From Nitrospinaceae bacterium (lineage in GTDB: Bacteria > Nitrospinota > Nitrospinia > Nitrospinales > Nitrospinaceae): 64,000 nucleotides of DNA. The stretch is taken from positions 196,854 through 260,853 of the forward strand of contig JAHELC010000001.1 of NCBI GenBank assembly GCA_024644405.1. The letters are read 5' to 3'. Below are positions 27,681 to 31,144 of the stretch, in pieces (within the stretch, counting starts at the first letter, position 1; each line of letters opens with the position of its first letter). The position numbers were made by a program, and so were the translations under genes. The notes beneath the pieces are model-generated. The model did no database searches. It was not told the origin of the DNA and saw nothing but the letters and a program-made list of their open reading frames with translations.

Positions 27681-28931
27681 TTACTCGAAGGTGTTCATCC
27701 ACAGCACGCCGCGCCCCTCCCTTTTGGCGTACCCGAAAATATCCAGAAAGGAATCCTGATCGATGTCGGCGAACGTCAACGCGTGGAACTTGTCATTGAA
27801 AGGAAGCCGTCGGCGGGATTCTTTCCAGAACCGCCATTTACCCAATCCTCTCAAATAATGAATTCCCTTTTTGCTCAATAAAATAATATCGGGAAACTCA
27901 CTGCCGTTGGCGTCCAGCAGGTACACCGCCTGGAAAACGGTCTTGGGAGATGCCTTGAACGGACCTTTTTTGAAATACCCTCTCCCGTGATTGACCAGGA
28001 AATAACTGGACTCACCCGGAGAAAGTTCTTCCCGGTTGACCACCAGCAAATCGTTGTCGCCGTCCTGGTCGAAATCGGCCCAATCGGCAGAAGCGCTCCG
28101 GTCCCGGATGGCGGGAAGCAGTTCCGAGGTCCGGTCTTCGAACTGGCCCAGCCCATTGTTGGTCAACAGGGAGTTTTGCCCCTCGCCGTTGACCAGGAAG
28201 ATGTCCAGGGTTTTGTCGCCATCATAATCCGCGAAGGAAGTGCCGACGATTCCCGGTTTCAGCGGGGGCATCAACAACTGCGTGGCATCGCGAAACTGGC
28301 CCTTCCCGTTGTTGATCATGAACTGAGTCTGGTACTTGTGGAGTTTTCCCTGGTCATTCAGAACCCGTTGCCCGGTAAAAAATAAATCAACGTGGCCGTC
28401 TTCATCGATATCCCGCATATCCACCCGGTCCACTCCCGGGTTGACGTAGGGAAAGCGAATTTCTTTTTTCGTGTAAAAATAACCTTTGCCGTTGTTGAAT
28501 AAAAATTTTGCCGACGCACCGTCGCTGAACCGTCCCACCAGCACCAGGTCCTGCACCCGGTCGTGATCCACATCCTGTAAAGCCATGAACACAATCTGAT
28601 CGGAGGGCTGCCCTTCCCACCCCACTCGTTTGACAGGAGTGAATGTTTTTCCCGCTTTATTATTCCAGATCCGGATCACCGGTTGGCCCCGGTCGCCGGT
28701 TCGCAGCAGAACCAGGTCCGGCAACGCATCCCGGTTGATATACGCCAGTTGGGCTTTCAGTATTCCAGGCTCCAATTCCGGCAGGTACGCCCGGGTTCGG
28801 TCCTTATATTTTTGAAGTTTCGGGTCTTCACCAAACATCGGACCCTTGCCGCAAGCCGCACACAAGAAGGCCAGCAGACACATCATCGCCGGAAACCTGA
28901 TCACTGTTTTTGTTTTAGAAATGAAGTTCAT
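27681..28931 (-). CDS. FG-GAP/VCBS-repeat lipoprotein
   Basis: The 416-residue product has a lipoprotein signal (FPAMMCLLAFLCAACGKG; lipobox CAAC). Six or seven beta-propeller blades with Asp-rich calcium loops follow, for example DVDHDRVQDLVLVG, DIDEDGHVDLFFTG, DYDGDKTLDIFLVNG, DFDQDGDNDLLVVN and DIDQDSFLDIFGYA. This is an integrin-alpha-like propeller on the cell surface or in the periplasm. The ATG at 28931 overlaps the lplA stop (TGATG), so translation is coupled. No catalytic domain is present. Confidence 0.85.
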   Translation of the reverse strand: MNFISKTKTVIRFPAMMCLLAFLCAACGKGPMFGEDPKLQKYKDRTRAYLPELEPGILKAQLAYINRDALPDLVLLRTGDRGQPVIRIWNNKAGKTFTPVKRVGWEGQPSDQIVFMALQDVDHDRVQDLVLVGRFSDGASAKFLFNNGKGYFYTKKEIRFPYVNPGVDRVDMRDIDEDGHVDLFFTGQRVLNDQGKLHKYQTQFMINNGKGQFRDATQLLMPPLKPGIVGTSFADYDGDKTLDIFLVNGEGQNSLLTNNGLGQFEDRTSELLPAIRDRSASADWADFDQDGDNDLLVVNREELSPGESSYFLVNHGRGYFKKGPFKASPKTVFQAVYLLDANGSEFPDIILLSKKGIHYLRGLGKWRFWKESRRRLPFNDKFHALTFADIDQDSFLDIFGYAKREGRGVLWMNTFE

Positions 28932-29839
28932 CAACCGCCCTTATATTGACGATGGTATTGGTTCACAAGTCTTGATTTTGTTTTCGCTCTCGGATGGTAT
29001 TCCATATACCCCGTGCAACCATCATCCCAGGGGCCACCAAACGTTTTTTGAAACCCTCCCCACAAAGCATTGCAAATTTCCTCGAAGATGAGTTCGCGGC
29101 CACAAACCCGGTTCAAACCGGTGGTCGCATCCAACAAACGTTGCCGGGTATTAATTCTCTGCCTTTCATCGTCAAACTTGAGAAGAGATGCAAACAACTC
29201 GTGGTCGGATTCGATGACCAGGGACCCGTGCTGTAAAAATGCCTTCGAGGTTCGCTTCTGAGCGCTCCCCACCAGCTTTTTGCCATCAACGGTAATTTCA
29301 CAATGATTGAGCGAGGCATAACAGGCTGGAGATCGCACCGGGCCAGACCGTTGTTTGCTTGTCTTGATGTCGCCATAAATGCCCAATCCTTTGAGCGATT
29401 GGTGAAAGACCGGAGACTGTACAGGCTTAAACTTTTGATTACGGGTATTGATATCACCTTGAACACCCAATCCTTTCAGGCCAAGCAACAAAGCCTCGCT
29501 GATCGCCTGAAATGTGGCTTTCAGTCCCCGGTTGAACGGAGCCAGGGTTACCGGCGCCACCACCGCATAGGTTAATTCGTTATAATGCAACAAGGCGCGC
29601 CCGCCGGTAGGCCGCCGGACCACAGGGATGGCCAACTCCCGGCAACGCTCCAGGTCCAACTCGGCTTCTGCATTTTGAGAATACCCCAGGCTGATCGACG
29701 GTTCGGACCAACCGTACACCCGTAGAGTCGGGGGAAGGAGACCCTGTTCACAACGAGCCAACATTGCGGAGTCCTCTGCCATATTGTTCTCCGCTGTCTG
29801 AAATCCGTCAATATTCAAGCGCCAATCTAGGTCAGACAT
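28931..29839 (-). CDS. Lipoate/octanoate-protein ligase family (LplA/LipM-like)
   Basis: The 302-residue protein has the cofactor-ligase fold: RVYGWSEPSISLGYSQ, the acyl-AMP loop VRRPTGGRALLHYNELTY and the catalytic Lys block VDGKKLVGSAQKRT. Between them a 28-residue segment occurs twice in tandem (residues 120-147 and 148-175), which makes the chain longer than usual. Members of the family either ligate lipoate or transfer octanoyl groups to lipoyl domains; the sequence does not decide which. ATG 29839 is chosen over upstream codons that run into the divergent SUMF1 gene region. Confidence 0.85.
   Translation of the reverse strand: MSDLDWRLNIDGFQTAENNMAEDSAMLARCEQGLLPPTLRVYGWSEPSISLGYSQNAEAELDLERCRELAIPVVRRPTGGRALLHYNELTYAVVAPVTLAPFNRGLKATFQAISEALLLGLKGLGVQGDINTRNQKFKPVQSPVFHQSLKGLGIYGDIKTSKQRSGPVRSPACYASLNHCEITVDGKKLVGSAQKRTSKAFLQHGSLVIESDHELFASLLKFDDERQRINTRQRLLDATTGLNRVCGRELIFEEICNALWGGFQKTFGGPWDDGCTGYMEYHPRAKTKSRLVNQYHRQYKGG
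29315..29482 (-). repeat. 84-base in-frame tandem duplication inside the lipoate-ligase gene
   Basis: Codons 120-147 and 148-175 encode related 28-residue units: LKGLGVQGDINT...PVQSPVF and LKGLGIYGDIKT...PVRSPAC. The DNA copies share blocks such as AAAGGATTGGG but have diverged clearly. The duplication is therefore not recent. Confidence 0.75.
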
Positions 29840-29983
29840 TCTTTTCCCTGGTTGAGATTTACCTTTTGACTCCACTCCGTGCATTTTATAAACTTTTCGA
29901 AGAGCCGTCAGGAAGATTTTGCACAGACGCGGAAATCCCGCGGCCGCCCTATTGTCAACCAAATCAGAGGAAATATCAAAAGA

Positions 29984-31024
29984 ATGCGCAGACACTATTG
30001 TTTGGCCTGGGGTTGTTTACTTTTCGCGATGGCGTTTGCCAAGCCGGCAGCGGCGTTCGAACACCTGCGGGATTCCCTTCATCAGATGGTAACTTGTGAA
30101 ACCGCCTGCCACCTGCCGGAAAATATCCGACAGGCCCGCGCCGAAAAAAACCTAAAAGCCGAATGCACCTCCTGCCACCAGGGAGACATGCCGCTGGAAA
30201 CCTTAAGCCCTTTTCAGAGCCCGGACCCTTTTCTGTTGCCGGAAAGCCAACAGCCGAACCGGCGTTTGCTGTCGCCGCGGCCTCCGGCTCCAGCCGGGCA
30301 AATCGTGGCCTCCTCCAAAATCCGAAAGTCGAAAAAAAATTCGAAAATCCCAGACATGGTTTTCATCGACGCCGGGGAGTTCATCATGGGGTCCAACGAA
30401 CGCTGGGATGACGAGTCGCCGGAACACATCAACCAGACCGGCGCATTTTACATTGATCTCTATGAAGTCACCAACCGCGATTACCAGAAATTCGTGGACA
30501 CCACGAAACGCAAACCACCGCACCACTGGGCATATGGAAACATCCCCAAAGGCAAAGAAGACCACCCGGTCACCTATGTCAGTTGGTTCGACGCGAATGA
30601 TTATTGCCAATGGGCCGGCAAACGCCTGCCCAACGAACAAGAATGGGAAAAAGCCGCGCGCGGGGAAGCCGGCAACATTTATCCCTGGGGCCACCTCTGG
30701 TCGCTCGACAAATCCAACAACCCGTACAAACATTCCACTGGAACGATGCCGGTGGGATCCTACCCCGACGGACGAAGTGTCTACGGATTATACGACATGT
30801 CGGGGAACGTGTGGGAATGGGTGGACGCCTACTACCTGCCCCACCCCGGCAACACCATCCCAAAATCGGAGTATGGCAAAGACAAACGAGTGCTGAAAGG
30901 CGGTTCGTGGTTCGACTGTCTGTCTTACGGATGCGGACTCAGCGCACCCACTTTCAACCGCAGTTTTTTCAATCCCGAGGTGAAAAACAACAGTTTCGGC
31001 TTCCGGTGCGCCAAAACCCCCTGA
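29984..31024 (+). CDS. Exported SUMF1/formylglycine-enzyme-like protein with haem-binding motifs
   Basis: The 346-residue product (start ATG 29984, AGAGGA upstream) has a signal peptide ending near PAAAFEH. A short segment carries CETACH (C-x3-CH, residues 38-43) and CTSCH (CxxCH, 61-65), typical of covalent c-type haem sites. After a Pro-rich linker, residues 122-346 form a SUMF1 domain: VFIDAGEFIMGSNERWDDE, RLPNEQEWEKAARG, YDMSGNVWEWVD, RVLKGGSWFDC, SFGFRC. Cys 312 and Cys 317 (C-x4-C) coincide with the copper-binding pair of true formylglycine-generating enzymes. No sulfatase gene is near. Periplasmic electron-transfer or structural roles are both possible. Confidence 0.8.
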   Translation: MRRHYCLAWGCLLFAMAFAKPAAAFEHLRDSLHQMVTCETACHLPENIRQARAEKNLKAECTSCHQGDMPLETLSPFQSPDPFLLPESQQPNRRLLSPRPPAPAGQIVASSKIRKSKKNSKIPDMVFIDAGEFIMGSNERWDDESPEHINQTGAFYIDLYEVTNRDYQKFVDTTKRKPPHHWAYGNIPKGKEDHPVTYVSWFDANDYCQWAGKRLPNEQEWEKAARGEAGNIYPWGHLWSLDKSNNPYKHSTGTMPVGSYPDGRSVYGLYDMSGNVWEWVDAYYLPHPGNTIPKSEYGKDKRVLKGGSWFDCLSYGCGLSAPTFNRSFFNPEVKNNSFGFRCAKTP

Positions 31025-31045: not shown

Positions 31046-31144
31046 ATGAACAAAAAACAACATGCCAGTCCAACCCGTCGCCTTCTTGTCTGGGTTCTTA
31101 TTATTGCGTTTTGGTTGCTTTACTTTTGGTGGCGTGAATCGTAA
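31046..31144 (+). CDS. Very small single-helix membrane protein (32 residues)
   Basis: An ATG with AAAGG 5 bases upstream opens a 32-codon frame, 21 bases after the SUMF1-like gene. The product has a basic N-terminus (MNKKQHASPTRRLL) followed by one Trp/Leu-rich helix (VWVLIIAFWLLYFWWRES), a plausible inner-membrane peptide with N-in orientation. The context suggests co-transcription with the haem/SUMF1 gene. Expression is not proven. Confidence 0.5.
   Translation: MNKKQHASPTRRLLVWVLIIAFWLLYFWWRES

Follow-up and report, generated by a model that had tools for sequence, protein, structure and literature searches.

Coupling of a haem pair with a cysteine pair in a haem-fused subfamily of the formylglycine-generating enzyme superfamily

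Results and Discussion

The gene at 29984-31024 of the window (the whole 64,000-nucleotide stretch of Nitrospinaceae DNA that was analysed) encodes a secreted protein that joins two haem motifs to a domain with the fold of the formylglycine-generating enzyme (FGE), and within the FGE superfamily this fusion protein belongs to a haem-fused subfamily. Our main result is the coupling, within a single clade, of the haem pair with a pair of cysteines (C312 and C317). We built a tree of 149 FGE-domain proteins with FastTree, and all 89 that have the Cys pair fell into one clade (support 0.93). The haem pair was present in 85 of these 89 proteins and in none of the other 60, counts that reflect one fusion event and not independent observations, and for which the Nitrospirota sample was chosen by the Cys-pair signature, leaving the paralogues from the host genome and from G077 as the only unbiased control.

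Gene and protein architecture

The open frame begins with ATG on the forward strand and is translated into a secreted protein of 346 residues. The gene, its parts, and its neighbors are listed here in order of position.

27681..28934, - strand: FG-GAP/VCBS repeat protein, adjoining lplA (Pfam FG-GAP_3, E = 4.8e-37; synteny)
28931..29842, - strand: lipoate-protein ligase A-like gene (lplA), divergent neighbor (Pfam LplA-B_cat, E = 1.6e-30; synteny)
29966..29971, + strand: AGAGGA, likely ribosome-binding site, 12 nt upstream of the ATG (read from the sequence)
29984..31024, + strand: whole gene for the secreted di-haem/FGE-fold fusion protein, 346 aa (open frame, Pfam match, Nitrospinales orthologues)
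29984..30055, + strand: Sec-type signal peptide, residues 1-24 (...AKPAAA), from the translation, with a putative cleavage site
30095..30112, + strand: first haem motif, C38-x3-C42-H43 (CETACH), kept in 93/93 members; CxxCH in Nitrospirota relatives
30164..30178, + strand: second haem motif, C61-x2-C64-H65 (CTSCH), kept in 93/93 members
30347..31015, + strand: FGE-sulfatase (SUMF1-fold) domain, residues 122-344 (PF03781, E = 5e-56; AF2/Foldseek matches to FGE, SUMF2, and CalU17)
30899..30961, + strand: family signature, G306-R326, GGSWFDCLSYGCGLSAPTFNR, with GGS, C, Y, C, G, S, and NR invariant in 93/93 members
30917..30919 and 30932..30934, + strand: the Cys pair inside the signature, C312 and C317, respectively
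31046..31144, + strand: small single-span membrane protein, 32 aa, MNKKQHASPTRRLLVWVLIIAFWLLYFWWRES, probable operon partner (similar ORF 3' of the gene in 44/51 Nitrospinales loci, 43 by pattern and L063 by eye)

The layout described in a first-pass annotation of this DNA, with two Cys-His motifs, a SUMF1 domain, and Cys 312 and Cys 317, was confirmed residue for residue. Cysteines occur at residues 6, 11, 38, 42, 61, 64, 208, 312, 317, and 342. The match to PF03781 scored 190.5 bits against a gathering cut-off of 23.3 and covered profile positions 2-255 of 255, and the linker that leads from the haem module to the FGE domain is Pro/Ser-rich and variable.

Distribution and conservation of the family

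The same fusion was found in other genomes, a check that the first-pass annotation had proposed. A single orthologue was present in 60 of 64 Nitrospinales genomes (families f1-f4 of our genome table, with the order name and the count being our own). Completeness is 57-87% in the four genomes that lack a full match, one of which has a fragment with a stop codon. Decay or assembly error may account for the stop codon that breaks the orthologue in two Nitrospinales bins (L014/L120 of G027, and G046:C52:40697-41308).

A wider search took 49 residues of the C-terminal signature as its probe, with E below 1e-10 counted as a strong match. Strong matches were found in 26 of 396 Nitrospirota genomes. 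Among the 398 Pseudomonadota genomes searched with this probe, members were found in one gammaproteobacterial bin, which has two family copies near each other, and in none of the 397 others. The same probe found nothing in 251 Chloroflexota genomes, an empty result that is uninformative because the search had no positive control. Matches to plasmid relatives were limited to residues 123-345, which excludes the haem module.

The residues C38/C42/H43, C61/C64/H65, C312, and C317 were kept in all 93 distinct haem-bearing members (from two phyla and the gammaproteobacterial bin), as was the pattern GGSxx[DN]CxxYxCGxSxxx[FY]NR. Because these motifs are invariant in proteins whose signal peptides and linkers vary without evident constraint (mean identity 0.25 and 0.24, respectively), their retention as a set is far beyond chance. 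The C-terminal FGE stretch is the most conserved part of the protein (mean identity 0.92), as would be expected for an active site. Homologues that lack both the Cys-His motifs and the Cys pair, which the first-pass annotation had named as grounds for refutation, were found only among general FGE-fold paralogues and not inside the family.

None of the FGE-fold paralogues fetched from the host genome had haem motifs or the Cys pair, and the viral-contig FGE-fold relatives likewise had no Cys pair. In all, the 3-Mb host genome encodes about 31 FGE-fold proteins and no sulfatase; some of these genes stand in tandem (e.g., C1:135930-138911 and C16:381602-383724), and their numbers are comparable across Nitrospinales.

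Five members have the Cys pair without haems (G404, G238, G308, G374, and G340), the last of which was missed by the search pattern. In the tree, the haem-less members group together as one nested clade, consistent with an ancestral fusion and one later loss. The existence of these five members implies that haems are not strictly needed for the function of the pair. Three other members that had seemed haem-less proved not to be: both motifs are visible in the sequences of L015 and L142, and L143 is a truncated locus whose full-length copy in L176 has both motifs.

The haem module

As in c-type cytochromes, haem attachment motifs are found here in an exported protein, one of them CX3CH and the other CxxCH. 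In 39 of the 93 members, almost all from Nitrospirota or the gammaproteobacterial bin, CxxCH is the form of both motifs. The first motif takes the canonical CxxCH form in Nitrospirota, the gammaproteobacterial bin, and G076, and the CX3CH form is confined to Nitrospinales and G001. The canonical first motif of the Nitrospirota members supports haem at the N-terminal motifs, and CX3CH itself is on record, in ImcH/CymA homologues, as a haem motif of atypical form (PMC6295460).

Every relative tested gave sub-threshold matches to PF14522, PF14537, and PF09699 (the cytochrome c7, c3, and paired-CXXCH models), and no cytochrome family profile in Pfam scored above its curated cut-off for the haem module. 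Like these families, the fusion protein has an exported module in which two haem motifs lie close together, but it differs from them in falling below their cut-offs, in having only two haems, and in having CX3CH as the first motif in Nitrospinales. Cytochrome-c assembly genes are present in the host genome. Covalent attachment of haem to the fusion protein is a strong prediction. No conserved second axial His/Met or distal ligand beyond the motifs was found for either haem in the alignment of 93 members. The first-pass annotation also suggested a haem-dependent oxidase, but the haems may be mere electron carriers.

Relation to FGE and other FGE-fold proteins

A usable AF2 model (mcbb6102cf543; pLDDT 80.6, with the FGE domain mostly above 90) was obtained with viral-contig FGE homologues added to the alignment; 21 close sequences alone gave a model with pLDDT 45, which was discarded. 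The best Foldseek matches of the model in the PDB included CalU17 (1e-22), SUMF2 (2e-22), and FGE (3e-20), with E-values of about 1e-19 to 1e-20 for copper FGE (PDB 2aii, 6muj, 6s07, and 5nxl). These matches assign the fusion protein to the FGE fold.

The fusion protein has the fold of aerobic FGE (SUMF1) and, like that enzyme, a C-x4-C pair that follows GGS. In addition, its C208 and C342 fall opposite two cysteines of human FGE, those of YCxW and GFRC, which in that enzyme are joined in a structural disulfide. It differs from aerobic FGE in the apparent displacement of its Cys pair by one residue, in the two fused haem motifs, and in having a host genome without a sulfatase. The displacement was seen when sequences and profiles were aligned with GGS and a conserved Tyr as anchors: the pair lies one residue off C336/C341 of human FGE, with D311 and G316 standing opposite these cysteines, and two single-residue insertions would restore the register. 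The claim of the first-pass annotation that the domain keeps the Cys pair of copper-dependent FGE is supported for the C-x4-C spacing and, in these alignments, not for strict register. Structure prediction around Cys 312/317, which it had also suggested, recovered the FGE fold and was least certain around the pair itself (block pLDDT 74-80).

SUMF2/pFGE, CalU17, ToxD, and PvdO rank with the top matches of the fusion protein, by sequence as well as by fold, and show that the FGE fold serves several chemistries. To our knowledge, none of them has fused haems, and SUMF2 has no Cys pair in the alignment, whereas the pair is invariant in the haem-FGE family. The sulfoxide and selenoxide synthases EgtB, OvoA, and SenA also have a C-terminal FGE-like domain and carry an extra N-terminal iron-binding domain that the fusion protein lacks. 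All NCBIfam equivalogs considered (EgtB, SenA, PvdO, and GldK) were far below their cut-offs, with the best score being 117.6 bits against the 360 required for EgtB.

Proposed function and alternatives

We give an even chance to the reading in which the fusion protein is a periplasmic redox enzyme in which electrons move between two haems and a thiolate site of the FGE type that may hold copper. A periplasmic redox role was one of the suggestions of the first-pass annotation and is well supported by the signal peptide, the two haem-c motifs, the invariant Cys pair, the cytochrome-c assembly genes, and the lack of a sulfatase. In the proposed mechanism, the protein would be exported and the cytochrome-c assembly system would attach two haems to its N-terminal module. 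C312 and C317, which border the region of the FGE active site, would form either a Cu(I) thiolate site or a redox-cycling disulfide, and the two haems, together well suited to carry two electrons, would shuttle electrons between this site and the periplasmic cytochrome pool. By analogy with FGE, the haems would supply the two extra electrons for full reduction of O2. In Nitrospinales, the one-span membrane protein encoded by the next gene may hold the fusion protein at the inner membrane. Catalysis by the fusion protein is moderately supported, and copper at the Cys pair weakly to moderately. The enzyme reading is favored by the invariant haem motifs and Cys pair, their coupling in one clade, the conserved C-terminal stretch, the weak cytochrome matches, and the cytochrome-c assembly genes. 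Against it stand the register shift relative to FGE, the low model confidence around the pair, the lack of a conserved distal haem ligand, the five haem-less members, and the lack of a substrate gene that travels with the fusion gene. It is rather unlikely that the protein is a self-sufficient FGE-type oxidase of nitrite oxidisers, in which a Cu(I)-thiolate site would take electrons from the fused haems and act on a periplasmic substrate other than a sulfatase.

We view with some doubt the alternative that the FGE-fold domain is a non-catalytic docking module with C312-C317 as a structural disulfide, so that the protein would be a di-haem carrier tethered to a partner. Many proteins use the FGE fold without catalytic cysteines, about 30 pair-less paralogues are encoded in the host genome, and the viral-contig relatives are also without the pair; the different Cys register agrees with docking as well, as does the fact that in Nitrospirota and the gammaproteobacterial bin haem-FGE genes often adjoin plain FGE-fold genes. 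However, an invariant GGSxxDCxxYxCGxSxxxFNR amid a drifting remainder is more than would be expected of a binding surface alone, and the Cys pair is restricted to the haem-fusion clade. The haems could instead be the catalytic site, as in an open-coordination oxidase, a peroxidase, or a ligand sensor, with the FGE-fold domain binding only a substrate or partner. Open coordination is possible since no second axial His/Met is conserved outside the motifs, but it is the FGE domain that is most tightly conserved, the haem module keeps little beyond its motifs, and one clade lost the haems and retained the Cys pair, which together leave this reading improbable.

The non-standard CX3CH of Nitrospinales and the Pfam cytochrome matches, all below cut-off, would also suit zinc or an iron-sulfur cluster, and not haem, at the N-terminal Cys/His motifs. 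The paired CxxCH motifs of the 39 members, the export of the protein, and the precedent for CX3CH in ImcH/CymA weigh against this and make it highly unlikely. Finally, the FGE fold and the C-x4-C pair might indicate a genuine sulfatase-activating FGE to which a cytochrome was added, which we find scarcely credible given the shifted register and the lack of sulfatases in the host genome and many carriers. The sulfatase family PF00884 had 0 matches in the host genome, which is 96% complete, and many carriers that are at least 90% complete (e.g., G010, G012, G017, G029, and G030) have no PF00884 sulfatase, though the fusion gene is near-universal in Nitrospinales. The first-pass observation that no sulfatase is nearby therefore extends to the whole genome. 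Because PF00884 is absent here and patchy among carriers, sulfatase activation is very unlikely to be the job of the fusion protein, and we rejected it as a role.

Genomic neighborhood

The upstream lplA and FG-GAP repeat genes were syntenic in nearly all loci examined, and recA was found downstream in most loci that reach far enough. The LplA protein of the window has a 28-aa internal tandem duplication at residues about 122-177 (LKGLGVQGDIN... / LKGLGIYGDIK...) that was absent in 12 of 12 relatives compared. Directly 3' of the fusion gene, the 32-codon ORF has a basic N-terminus and an RK-hydrophobic-FWxxFYW pattern. By the positive-inside rule, the C-terminus of its product would face the periplasm, which would suit an anchor or adaptor, and there is a weak indication that the product anchors the fusion protein at the membrane. 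This small protein was not found after the haem-FGE gene in Nitrospirota.

At six Nitrospirota loci (L165, L168, L170, L172, L175, and L177), one haem-FGE copy immediately follows a quinone biosynthesis gene that resembles ubiD or ubiA, names that were assigned by eye. Haem-FGE genes often adjoin pair-less FGE-fold genes, as at L281 (gammaproteobacterial bin), L083, L163, L174, and L180, and the two kinds sometimes alternate, as if they worked in pairs. No substrate gene travels with the fusion gene in the loci examined, no PADLOC match linked it to a defence system, and no RNA elements were found near it.

Significance

A published description of a haem-FGE fusion was not found in the literature searched, with most subscription journals falling outside that search. 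For each O2, FGE must draw two electrons from an external source (PMC4505483), and the reductant that provides them in the cell has yet to be identified (PMC12123546). The deeply conserved fusion of haems with an FGE-fold Cys pair is a concrete candidate for testing electron delivery to an FGE-type site. If the protein is a self-sufficient oxidase, no natural electron donor for FGE-like chemistry would have been found before its haems. For the Nitrospinales, which are major marine nitrite oxidisers, the family represents a near-universal, uncharacterised, and probably periplasmic redox protein.
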